Shown in pieces: positions 13,856 through 16,982 of a DNA stretch of 24,426 nucleotides. The stretch is from positions 1 to 24,426 of the IMG/VR virus record IMGVR_UViG_3300048694_000820. One strand, written 5' to 3'. How positions within the stretch are numbered: position 1 is the stretch's first letter; each line of letters starts with the position of its first letter. Source of the stretch: a virus. The notes below the pieces were generated by a model, which was not told the origin of the DNA, did no database searches, and saw nothing but the letters and a program-made list of their open reading frames with translations. The position numbers and the translations under genes are program-made.

Positions 13856-13961
13856 CTTTCATCTCCTCATTTGCTAACTTTAATATGTAGTAAATGATAT
13901 ATGCAGTAAAGATAAAACCACAAGATAATATTATTACCACACCCCAAGGAAACTCATTCAT
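13809..13961 (-). CDS. 50-aa single-pass membrane protein
   Basis: The ORF starts MNEFPWGVVIILSCGF, with one transmembrane helix (about 6-27) and a hydrophilic acidic tail (NEEMKDETTESNPITSESKH). The ATG overlaps the stop of the metalloprotease-like gene as TGATG, and an AATGAGGAG inside it is the SD of the following 70-aa gene. The overlapping pair of two small membrane proteins in different frames is reminiscent of nested lysis genes (spanin-like pairs). No lipobox is visible, however, so that remains a guess. Confidence 0.6.
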   Translation of the reverse strand: MNEFPWGVVIILSCGFIFTAYIIYYILKLANEEMKDETTESNPITSESKH

Positions 13962-14707
13962 CAGTACTTACCTTCAACGCAATATTGTGCTTTTTTATTT
14001 GGATAATAAGGATATAAACCTTCTTGAGGTTTCATATAACCACATCCAATTAACCATTCCATCGTTTGTGGAGTTGGTCTTATCTGATCCCAAAGAGGTC
14101 CATTCGCACACATCTCTAATTTTTCGGCAGTTACATTAGACTGTTCCTCTGCCCAGTTTGCATCTGCTTCCCAAGGAACTGCACGACTTTGCATCATAGA
14201 TTCATAAGTTAGTTTTGTCATCTTCATTACCCAGGCAGGAATCTCACTATCCTGATGAACCTGTGCCATAAAAGAAGTTTTTAATCCACCACCCATACAA
14301 TCCTGAACGGTATGCCATCCTTCGTGGCGAAGAGTTCCTAAAAACTCTCTAGGGTCCGACACAAGTTCTTCATTAATAAAGAAACGATTATAGTTTGGTT
14401 TGTATAAACCTACTGTTCTTGGTGTAAAATATCTACTTGGAGCAAGATACACACCAATTTCTAATTTATCAAGTGCTTTAATAATTCTTTTAATCTCATC
14501 ACGGAAACGATCAAAGTTTGGGTCTTCAAAAACTTTTGATTCTGGTGAGAGTTTTTCTGTTCCATCTGTACATTCTAAAAGAATCATACAACCCATTGCT
14601 TCTGCACTATAAGGTCTTACTGTGGGTTGATTACTTAAAAGTTTATCTGCTCGAACTGGAAGAGCAAAACTTAACGTTATTCCGATTGCTGCAATGAATT
14701 TTTTCAT
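13961..14707 (-). CDS. Secreted putative zinc metallopeptidase (HEGWH)
   Basis: A 248-aa protein with a signal peptide (MKKFIAAIGITLSFALPVRA, cleaved near residue 20). It contains LRHEGWHTVQD with an HExxH zinc motif at residues 128-132. E180 in VPWEADANWAEE could be the third ligand 48 residues later, as in gluzincins. Several Cys (40, 46, 137 and others) suggest disulphides in the periplasm. The gene is coupled by ATGA to the 66-aa gene and lies in the same direction as the lysozyme. It might cleave host envelope protein or peptidoglycan cross-links. Activity is inferred from the motif only. Confidence 0.75.
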   Translation of the reverse strand: MKKFIAAIGITLSFALPVRADKLLSNQPTVRPYSAEAMGCMILLECTDGTEKLSPESKVFEDPNFDRFRDEIKRIIKALDKLEIGVYLAPSRYFTPRTVGLYKPNYNRFFINEELVSDPREFLGTLRHEGWHTVQDCMGGGLKTSFMAQVHQDSEIPAWVMKMTKLTYESMMQSRAVPWEADANWAEEQSNVTAEKLEMCANGPLWDQIRPTPQTMEWLIGCGYMKPQEGLYPYYPNKKAQYCVEGKY

Positions 14708-14910: not shown

Positions 14911-15033
14911 TCACTTTTTCTTACCACCATTCTTTGCTTTTTTAGCATTAGCATTTCCAGAATTTTGCTTTTTATTATTAGCAGATCCAGCACCACCAGA
15001 TCCCTTTTTACCTTTGTTAGCAGACTTTGACAT
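14911..15033 (-). CDS. 40-aa Lys/Gly/Asn micro-protein
   Basis: The ORF is MSKSANKGKKGSGGAGSANN followed by KKQNSGNANAKKAKNGGKKK. It is extremely basic, low-complexity and without hydrophobic residues. A good SD (GAGGAG) lies 7 nt upstream, and the ATG overlaps the stop of the membrane protein gene as TGATG. The composition resembles a disordered nucleic-acid- or envelope-binding peptide. It is likely real because of the SD and the junction. The function is unknown. Confidence 0.65.
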   Translation of the reverse strand: MSKSANKGKKGSGGAGSANNKKQNSGNANAKKAKNGGKKK

Positions 15034-15437
15034 CAGAGATCTCCTCTTGAATAGGGTTTTTCTTCATCAACTTTCGCTTCTAAAGCTTCAACTCTTTCTT
15101 CAAGAGAAGATTCTTCTTTATAAGCAGTTTGAACTAGTGGTTCTTCATTTACTTCTTTCACAACCACTTTCTCTACTGCAGCAGATGCCTCTGCAGCAAC
15201 TGACTCAGTGTCAGATGTTGGAGGTGTTTCTACAAACTCCTCCGTTTTTGCTTCAGACTTTTTTTCATCATCATCATCTCCACCTTTCTTCATAGTATTA
15301 ATTCCAAACGTAGCAGCAGATGCGGTGAACACTGTTGCTATAAATGTCGGGTCCATCTTAGCAAGAAGACCCGCATAACTTGCCGTGAGAAGTGCGGCAG
15401 ACCAACTCAAAATCGCAACACGAATAAAAGTACTCAT
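15033..15437 (-). CDS. Holin-like two-helix membrane protein with acidic coiled tail
   Basis: A 134-aa protein with two hydrophobic helices near the N-terminus (about IRVAILSWSAALLTASYAGL and TFIATVFTASAATFGI) separated by a KMDP turn, then a highly acidic domain and a helical end (SLEERVEALEAKV). The position right after the lysozyme and the two-helix layout fit a class II holin, though the long tail is unusual. An ATG at 15467 would add ten residues but has no SD; 15437 has AAGAGAAAAG upstream. Holin function is inferred from topology and context. Confidence 0.6.
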   Translation of the reverse strand: MSTFIRVAILSWSAALLTASYAGLLAKMDPTFIATVFTASAATFGINTMKKGGDDDDEKKSEAKTEEFVETPPTSDTESVAAEASAAVEKVVVKEVNEEPLVQTAYKEESSLEERVEALEAKVDEEKPYSRGDL

Positions 15438-15485
15438 ATACTTTTCTCTTTTATTTGGCGTGTTCATTTTAGAGAACGTGAGAGG

Positions 15486-16181
15486 TTAACCTTTTTTCCA
15501 AGCTTCACCTTCAGACTTTCTTCTACGAGCAAGTCCTGCTTCTACACTTGAACCAGGATTTCTGTAAAGATACAATGCATCGGGAACTAAATCCCATTCT
15601 TTATCTTTCAAGCGTTTAGTAATAGTATTAAAGTCATTACTACCGTAAAAACCGGCACCAAGATTATAAGCAAAGCTGAGCAAAGCTCCCCTCTTTCCAT
15701 CTGACATTTCTCCCCAATGTGGAATTTTACGAAGTGAAGGTAAGAAGTGCTTTTTGCATTCATCAATCAGAAGTTCATCTGCTTCTGCTTGAGTAATTTT
15801 ATCTCCCATATGGAATGGAGATCCATCTTTTTTACGGGTGCAACCCCAACCAATAGTAATTGGTAAGTTTCCACTGAGAGGATCTGGATATGCATCCAGT
15901 CTACAACCTTCAAATTCTTTGATTAATTTGATACCCATCATTGGAACATCATCACCACCAGCTGGTGCTGGTGAAGAAGACGCTGCAGGAGCAGGAGCAG
16001 AATCTGATGTAGATGCTGCTGCAGCATTAGACTTTTTTCCACGATAGATTTCTGCCCAATCTACATTATCCTCAAGAAATTTATTTGGTAGATGATCTTC
16101 TAACCACTGAACTGCTTTAACATGATTAGGGTTTTTTTCATCATAAAATTTAAAAAAGTTATGTAGATCAATTCTTGCCAT
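15486..16181 (-). CDS. GH24 lysozyme (endolysin) with an extra N-terminal module
   Basis: A 231-aa protein. Residues 81-231 form a T4-lysozyme-like GH24 muramidase with FEGCRLDAYPD and ITIGWGCT; E91, D100 and T109 correspond to the catalytic triad E11, D20 and T26 of T4 lysozyme. Residues 1-48 are a module (DLHNFFKFYDEKNPNHVKAV...QWLEDHLP) that also starts the C39-like peptidase encoded upstream. A linker of Ala/Ser/Pro/Gly (51-80) separates the two. There is no signal peptide, so a holin or virion delivery is needed. The SD is CGGAGG. The protein cleaves the host peptidoglycan. Confidence 0.92.
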   Translation of the reverse strand: MARIDLHNFFKFYDEKNPNHVKAVQWLEDHLPNKFLEDNVDWAEIYRGKKSNAAAASTSDSAPAPAASSSPAPAGGDDVPMMGIKLIKEFEGCRLDAYPDPLSGNLPITIGWGCTRKKDGSPFHMGDKITQAEADELLIDECKKHFLPSLRKIPHWGEMSDGKRGALLSFAYNLGAGFYGSNDFNTITKRLKDKEWDLVPDALYLYRNPGSSVEAGLARRRKSEGEAWKKG

Positions 16182-16266
16182 TTTGTCCTCCGAAATATTT
16201 TTGATAAAGATCGTTTGCTTCTTTATGTTTTCCGTTATTTGTAAGATCCTTAATTACTTTAAGCAT
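16168..16266 (-). CDS. 32-aa ORF between the C39 peptidase and lysozyme
   Basis: The ORF reads MLKVIKDLTNNGKHKEANDL then YQKYFGGQNGKN. It contains a likely amphipathic helix (KVIKDLTNNGKHKEANDLYQKYF). It begins in the gap after the peptidase stop and overlaps the lysozyme start by 14 nt; the lysozyme SD lies within it. The SD is weak (AAAGAAAG). Its position fills an otherwise empty stretch, so I keep it as a likely small gene. Confidence 0.5.
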   Translation of the reverse strand: MLKVIKDLTNNGKHKEANDLYQKYFGGQNGKN

Positions 16267-16279
16267 CTTTCTTTTGAAA

Positions 16280-16951
16280 TTAATCGAAGATCCTTCCCCA
16301 TCCATCATTGCCTCCTGGACACCAACGTGCCTTAAGCATTGCTTTGGTATAAATTGTCTTCTTACCGTTGGTAACAGGTCCAGTATAGTTATCATTACAA
16401 GATCCATATGGATCATTGCAGTAATAACCTTTACCATCTGGTGTTCTACCAATCACTACAACCATGTGCCCACCAGTAGGATTAGATAAAGAACCACGAT
16501 GCAATATGCCAATAACGACAGGCTTCCCAGCATCAAGGCTCTTATCAATATCAGAGAAAGAAAGATTGTAACTAAAGTGTGACTTAACACCATAAGCAGC
16601 AAGAACTTTTGTCTGTACTGCGTGATCAGTTGTATCACCAATCTCAAATACTTTCTTAACGTATTCGTCGTCTCCTTTAATAGATCCTGGTTTAAGGAAT
16701 GCAAGACACATTGCACATGACGAACTGTTACAAGTTCTATGTGCATCTCTGTAGTTATCTACCTGATTAAAGTATGGAACTGCAAGAACTTCTGGAGTGG
16801 GTGGTTTTGTTCTAAAAATTGAAACCCACTCCGTCTCCGAATCATCCATGAATTGGGCAGGAAGATTATCTTCTAACCATTGAACTGCTGCTACATGATT
16901 AGAATTACTATCATCATAATACTTAAAAAAGTTATGAAGGTCTAAGGTCAT
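16280..16951 (-). CDS. C39-like cysteine peptidase with the same N-terminal module as the lysozyme
   Basis: A 223-aa protein. Residues 1-47 match the lysozyme N-terminus (DLHNFFKYYDDSNSNHVAAV, then QWLEDNLP). The rest resembles the papain-fold C39/C39_2 family: C74 (TCNSSSCAMCLAFL) as nucleophile, GGHMVVVIG with H162, and NDPYG with D180. Such domains cut peptides or act on peptidoglycan and glycine-type leader sites. It has its own late promoter 24 bp upstream. With lysozyme and the holin-like gene it forms a lysis or virion-wall-entry group. The substrate is unknown. Confidence 0.8.
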   Translation of the reverse strand: MTLDLHNFFKYYDDSNSNHVAAVQWLEDNLPAQFMDDSETEWVSIFRTKPPTPEVLAVPYFNQVDNYRDAHRTCNSSSCAMCLAFLKPGSIKGDDEYVKKVFEIGDTTDHAVQTKVLAAYGVKSHFSYNLSFSDIDKSLDAGKPVVIGILHRGSLSNPTGGHMVVVIGRTPDGKGYYCNDPYGSCNDNYTGPVTNGKKTIYTKAMLKARWCPGGNDGWGRIFD

Positions 16952-16974: not shown

Positions 16975-16982
16975 TATTTATA
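16975..16982 (-). promoter_or_regulatory. T4-type late promoter TATAAATA
   Basis: An exact consensus 24 bp upstream of the peptidase ATG at 16951. It is fused to the T-run of the peroxiredoxin terminator (TTTTTTTATAAATA), the same arrangement as at 9285-9298. Confidence 0.75.

Follow-up and report, generated by a model that had tools for sequence, protein, structure and literature searches.

The window, the whole 24,426-nt stretch of the IMG/VR record IMGVR_UViG_3300048694_000820, is part of the genome of a T4-like cyanophage (cyanomyovirus). Reading the ORF translations by eye, we recognised psbA, talC, zwf, gnd, phoH, thyX, speD and related genes. We infer the host of the phage from this cyanophage gene content. 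Two genes of the fragment encode a C39-like cysteine peptidase and a GH24 lysozyme, and both proteins start with copies of one short module (Table 1).

The C39-like protein matches Peptidase_C39_2 (PF13529) with an E value of 6.4e-15 and 56.4 bits, passing the cutoff of 24. Its AlphaFold model has a pLDDT of 87, and the top PDB matches over residues 52–223 are C39 peptidases with Z around 15; the pseudomurein endoisopeptidase PeiR is among the structural neighbours of the domain. The C39/papain fold assigns a putative catalytic role to C74, H162 and D180, and the activity itself is putative. The lysozyme matches Phage_lysozyme/GH24 (PF00959) at residues 88–224 with an E value of 3.3e-21 and 76.3 bits, passing the cutoff of 22.3. 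It holds the E-D-T residues E91, D100 and T109, which we take, by comparison with T4 lysozyme, to be the catalytic positions of that enzyme. Judged from the folds, the C39-like enzyme is probably a peptide cutter, and the GH24 enzyme would be a glycan cutter.

Table 1. Features of the enzyme pair in the window, and predicted frameshift sites in relatives
Feature	Position	Strand	Basis
Module + C39-like cysteine peptidase gene, 223 aa	16280-16951	-	ORF; Peptidase_C39_2
Module copy 1, residues 1-49 of C39 protein, MTLDLHNFFKYYDDSNSNHVAAVQWLEDNLPAQFMDDSETEWVSIFRTK	16805-16951	-	Pairwise BLASTP to copy 2
Putative catalytic Cys74, C39-like peptidase	16730-16732	-	Invariant in 35 relatives
Putative catalytic His162, C39-like peptidase	16466-16468	-	Invariant in 35 relatives
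Putative catalytic Asp180, C39-like peptidase	16412-16414	-	Invariant in 35 relatives
Module + linker + GH24 lysozyme gene, 231 aa	15486-16181	-	ORF; Phage_lysozyme
Module copy 2, residues 1-50 of lysozyme, MARIDLHNFFKFYDEKNPNHVKAVQWLEDHLPNKFLEDNVDWAEIYRGKK	16032-16181	-	Pairwise BLASTP, profile, tree
Ala/Ser/Pro-rich linker, 30 aa, module to lysozyme	15942-16031	-	Translation
GH24 lysozyme domain	15486-15941	-	PF00959 match
Small gene without annotation, 45 aa, MDGEGSSINFKRKMLKVIKDLTNNGKHKEANDLYQKYFGGQNGKN, overlapping both enzyme genes	16168-16305	-	Conservation, codon changes
TATAAATA, a match to the T4-type late promoter element	16975-16982	-	23 nt upstream of C39 gene ATG
Predicted -1 frameshift M-C39/GH24, S-PM2	L005, NC_006820, 4678-5175		
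Predicted -1 frameshift M-C39/GH24, S-CAM7	L007, 4690-5217		
Module-only ORF ending CPHCGKPLGK-stop on G_GGA_AAG, GH24 in -1 frame	L079, L081, L305-L326		

The lysozyme gene starts at an ATG of its own, with GGAGG lying 5 nt upstream. T4-type late promoter elements number 2 in the window versus 1.7 expected by chance, and the position of the one ahead of the C39 gene is at most suggestive of a late promoter.

The 45-aa gene between the enzymes is kept in 42 distinct loci including the window, and in each of these the ATG falls on the same codon. AGGAGG lies just upstream of two tandem ATGs. Of its codon changes, 67% are synonymous versus 19% expected, and the gene is under strong purifying selection. 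In DSL-LC02 a different, secreted-looking protein of 127 aa replaces it, and at 235–663 of locus L155 the small ORF is in frame with the module of M-GH24 as one open frame. Directly downstream of the lysozyme, a 144-aa protein (15033–15467, minus strand), whose N-terminus has two hydrophobic segments and whose tail is charged, is a candidate holin; its PHROGs, phrog_721 and phrog_21865, are both without assigned function. Further along, a 248-aa protein (13961–14707, minus strand) with a signal-peptide-like start and a HEGWH motif belongs to PHROG_591, also without assigned function, and is perhaps a secreted metalloprotease.

The first-pass annotation had claimed a shared N-terminal module on the lysozyme and the C39-like peptidase, and this is borne out in place and in likeness. 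BLASTP aligns residues 3–49 of the C39 protein with residues 4–49 of the lysozyme at 28/47 identities (60%) and 81% positives with an E value of 1e-18, so the resemblance is far beyond chance. Outside the module BLASTP gives no other alignment of note between the two proteins, and their catalytic parts have unrelated folds. In a profile of 42 relatives, A5 and W42 are invariant and N7, F8, F9, Y12, L26 and R47 are kept in at least 90%. AlphaFold predicts a small helical domain with a pLDDT of 85 and helices at 17–29 and 41–47. It forms a domain of its own, with a linker behind it, and lies mid-protein in some relatives, so it is not simply N-terminal; an N-terminal export signal was rejected because the module also sits between domains.

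The module was also said to belong to no named family, and the searches agree. Pfam-A gives no convincing match for the 42 module members, the best being single unrelated eukaryotic families at E 0.0025 and weaker; NCBIfam has no model covering the module, and the PDB sequences include no relative below E 0.5. The module is thus no named domain in these three collections, and the possible refuter given at the outset, that it is a known domain, fails. Foldseek with the 49-residue model finds no PDB match and one meaningless BFVD match, and neither Pfam nor this fold search reveals resemblance to known wall-binding domains. The window proteins match PHROG_3617 and PHROG_10051, where the module is present only inside whole-protein families. 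No paper on the module was found in the literature searched.

The two copies are old. Across 75 distinct loci with both genes, the C39-module and the lysozyme-module are 0.604 identical within a genome and 0.602 across genomes, whereas orthologous copies between phages are 0.88 identical for C39 and 0.94 for lysozyme. Equal identity within and across genomes with more alike orthologues means that there is no concerted evolution, that the duplication predates these phages and that both copies were kept. Both evolve separately under constraint.

In a tree of 73 short modules, of which only the well-supported nodes are used, the lysozyme modules of the window lineage form one clade (100/96) adjoining the C39 copy of S-SZBM1. 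This clade is nested with the C39 copies of its own lineage (100/98), as expected of one duplication. The lysozyme modules of loci L191 and L212 lie elsewhere on the tree, so the module has met GH24 at least three times. A recent gene conversion or a chance likeness within one genome, the former named at the outset as a possible refuter, has for it only that two adjoining genes have the module; the BLASTP E value, the equal identities in the 75 loci, the tree and the relatives numbering in hundreds reduce it to a practically negligible chance. By computation, the module is real, old and separately conserved on both genes.

Among relatives the module (M) is mobile in its context, and a divergent form (M2) heads the second enzyme, GH24 or GH19, in other relatives. 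M2 is homologous to M (hhalign probability 96%, E 1.8e-9), and S-SRP01 bridges both profiles. The two-gene arrangement of M-C39 and M-GH24 is found in the window phage, DSL-LC02 and DSL-LC03. S-SZBM1 has M-C39 and no adjoining GH24, ACG-2014f an in-frame M-C39-GH24 fusion, S-CREM1 GH24-M-C39, S-N03 M-C39-GH19, S-B68 C39-M-GH19, S-CREM2 C39 and M-GH19 as separate genes, and locus L203 GH24-M-M15. The distinct frames in IMG/VR and the named loci amount to 168 for M-C39, 97 for M-GH24, 18 for M-GH19 and 13 for M-C39-GH24.

Counting M or M2 alike, the endolysins of P60, S-CBP42 and S-B28 are M-GH19, that of S-CBP2 is M-C39 and that of S-SRP01 is M-GH73. Those of S-EIVl and S-CBS1 are M-GH73-C39, that of S-CBS2 is GH24-M-C39, that of S-CBS3 is M-GH24-M15 and that of S-CRES2 is GH73-M-C39, with the GH73 of S-CBS1 and S-CRES2 and the M15 of S-CBS3 assigned by eye; the myovirus B23 has YkuD-M-GH19. 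In S-SRP01 a match in two pieces hinted at a module gene standing alone; on reading it proved to be a decayed stub running into a stop and was rejected as a gene.

The enzymes joined to the module, which is N-terminal or between domains, are C39, GH24, GH19, GH73 (glucosaminidase) and M15, all peptidoglycan-hydrolase folds. The earlier proposal of one module on different catalytic folds holds for C39 and GH24 in the window, and a survey of domain architectures adds GH19, GH73 and M15 from the relatives. The carriers are Kyanoviridae myoviruses, the Autographiviridae podoviruses P60, S-CBP2, S-CBP42, S-B28 and S-SRP01, and the siphovirus-type S-CBS1, S-CBS2, S-CBS3 and S-CRES2. All confident named carriers are Synechococcus phages; the 34 psbA-bearing Prochlorococcus-phage records of the same collection are absent from the named matches, and many Synechococcus phages lack a match too. 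A scan of prokaryote genomes, a weak test of absence from cyanobacterial genomes, returned the single locus L094. This 3.1-kb contig of a MAG called Euryarchaeota encodes both M-C39 and M-GH24, and most likely it is cyanophage DNA that was misbinned.

By computation, the second enzyme is joined by different routes, namely duplication in the window, in-frame fusion in ACG-2014f, a divergent own copy (M2) and, as predicted for S-PM2 and many contigs, −1 frameshifting. A GH24 that comes after M-C39 and lacks an ATG occupies the −1 frame, and the C39 gene ahead of it closes with GWGRIFDAKK-stop on A AAA AAG stop. The heptamer A_AAA_AAG precedes GH24 at about 33 distinct junctions, where the GH24 frame is mostly without ATG. 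Of the 45 distinct M-C39 proteins overlapped by GH24, 35 have the KK tail, and it is absent from all M-C39 proteins with a different arrangement downstream.

The 65 nt past the heptamer fold with a mean z of −3.1, below −1.5 at 34 of 40 sites, versus a mean z of −0.8 at 16 control junctions whose second enzyme has its own ATG. A stem of at least 8 pairs is present at 28 of the 29 distinct A_AAA_AAG sites, mostly starting 0–8 nt downstream. The stems covary, with several pair types at most positions (at position −7, TA 11, AT 10, GC 3 and CG 1); as they come from the minimum-energy fold of each sequence and some sequences are close kin, this is a strong sign rather than a formal covariation test.

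In S-PM2 the slippery site, the hairpin and the −1 GH24 are identical in its two sequenced records, and the annotated 'putative lysin' comprises the last 72 residues only, without the catalytic residues. In S-CAM7 a T run (T_TTT_TTC-like) replaces A_AAA_AAG and a strong hairpin is present. The GH24 'lysins' of both phages are annotated as short fragments because the catalytic half is in the −1 frame behind the slippery site, and these annotations are corrected here.

A second cassette directly before GH24 comprises the module, a linker, CPHCGKPLGK and a stop, with the slippery sequence CTG GGA AAG (G_GGA_AAG). Searching for CPHCGKPLGK with all synonymous codons of LGK allowed returned 23 contigs among 2.9 million. 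All 23 have the module upstream and GH24 downstream in the −1 frame, and all read exactly CTGGGAAAG.

Programmed −1 frameshifting is accordingly predicted to join the second enzyme in these relatives, and with A_AAA_AAG the heptamer, the stop, the mostly start-less −1 ORF and the downstream structure are all found. The A_AAA_AAG sites appear to yield M-C39 plus M-C39-GH24 from one gene, and the CPHCGKPLGK sites are predicted to yield M-GH24 together with a module-only product of roughly 75 residues. As a speculation, the single CxxC per chain (CPHC) might bind zinc between chains. The window junctions carry neither cassette: the C39 gene terminates in GRIFD-stop and lacks a slippery site, the lysozyme starts from an ATG and ribosome-binding site of its own, and the place of the CPHCGKPLGK-stop cassette is taken by the Ala/Ser/Pro linker.

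What the module does is best read, at about an even chance, as wall binding in free endolysins. The first-pass annotation had offered targeting, virion docking or wall binding as its role; wall targeting leads, and docking is disfavoured. The module would be a helical accessory domain of about 48 residues in free, non-virion endolysins of Synechococcus phages, and would bind the cyanobacterial cell wall, either peptidoglycan or something attached, to bring different cutters to the same substrate. In the window phage the duplicated module would have been put on the lysozyme, so that the glycan cutter and the probable peptide cutter share one anchor and act late, each tethered by it. In the relatives frameshifting may set the ratio of the anchor to the second enzyme. 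In favour of wall binding, the same module is on five peptidoglycan-hydrolase folds across three tail types. The module-only product without a catalytic domain, predicted in the 23 contigs, implies that the module probably does something by itself. Against it stand the lack of a sequence or fold match to known wall-binding domains in these searches and the many Synechococcus phages without a detectable module.

So short a module could equally be a protein–protein, oligomerising domain, which the module-only product fits too. The modules might bind each other, and the M-C39, M-GH24 and module-only chains might assemble into a single heteromeric lysin, with frameshifting or gene dosage determining its make-up. 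The matching modules on two genes of one operon, the module-only and enzyme-bearing chains predicted from one gene in relatives, and the CPHC that could hold zinc between chains agree with such an assembly, and it is established that a single gene can supply both polypeptides of a multimeric endolysin (PMC9430671). However, many relatives have only one module, in a single fused lysin with no evident partner, the two copies show no concerted evolution and the heteromer is hypothetical, so we regard the assembly as rather unlikely.

The module might instead bind a phage lysis partner or the inner membrane and control release or its timing, as its restriction to lysis enzymes and the adjoining 45-aa gene and 144-aa protein with hydrophobic N-terminal segments would allow. 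Yet it lacks a transmembrane or signal-anchor segment, functions at internal as well as N-terminal positions and has different neighbour genes in the podo- and siphophages, which makes this role improbable. Docking to the tail or capsid for use at infection is more improbable still. Large proteins with lysin domains are indeed present in some cyanophage virions, for example ORF208 and ORF209 in S-CREM2 (PMC10665884). But the published virion proteome of S-CREM2, one carrier and not the window phage, lists the nearby ORF165 and ORF174 among its 52 proteins and misses both C39 (ORF168) and M-GH19 (ORF169) (PMC10665884 Table 3), and the carriers have unrelated virion types.

Our tentative overall picture, held with slightly less than even confidence, is a combinatorial and possibly heteromeric lysin of Synechococcus phages built around one module. 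In many of the phages, −1 frameshifting would determine how much anchor (module or M-C39) is made relative to lysozyme, and the window lineage would have replaced or escaped this control via the module duplication. The cyanophage lysis of hosts is poorly known, though important in aquatic carbon cycling. As a search signature, the module picks out Synechococcus-phage lysis enzymes from all three tail types, many of which bear no annotation beyond hypothetical protein. The literature searched yielded no report of programmed −1 frameshift control of endolysins or of frameshifted cyanophage endolysins. If confirmed, the frameshift would offer a clear example of endolysin composition being controlled at translation, and S-PM2 on Synechococcus WH7803 is a cultured model for it.

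An accessory domain shuffled among endolysins is of a known kind; this domain, its spread and its attachment routes are undescribed in the literature searched. Like LysM, SH3b, PG_binding_1 and CW_7, it is a small non-catalytic domain shuffled among endolysin catalytic domains, but it has no Pfam sequence match or fold match and is so far confined to Synechococcus phages. PHROG_3617 (405 aa) and PHROG_10051 (455 aa, 'endolysin') are likewise cyanophage lysins with the module beside a C39-like domain, but they are clusters of complete proteins in which a mobile module on other folds is not described.

The slippery heptamers have familiar counterparts, as G_GGA_AAG is that of lambda G/GT and A_AAA_AAG that of E. 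coli dnaX. Both of those systems have a zero-frame stop, and dnaX also has a downstream stem-loop. The cyanophage sites share the heptamers and the zero-frame stop, but the joined product is an endolysin instead of a tail chaperone or a DNA polymerase subunit.

Two-polypeptide endolysins from single genes are represented by Lys170, LysIME-EF1, CTP1L and LysP7951 (PMC9430671, PMC7098653, PMC4777826). Separately made wall-binding subunits occur among them (PMC9430671, which does not mention frameshifting). In these, and as predicted in the cyanophage relatives, one gene gives the full-length enzyme and an extra non-catalytic domain. The former use an in-frame internal start to make the C-terminal part, whereas the relatives apparently use a −1 frameshift to make the N-terminal part, and their short product would end at the zero-frame stop of the frameshift site. 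The window phage differs from both in having two full genes.
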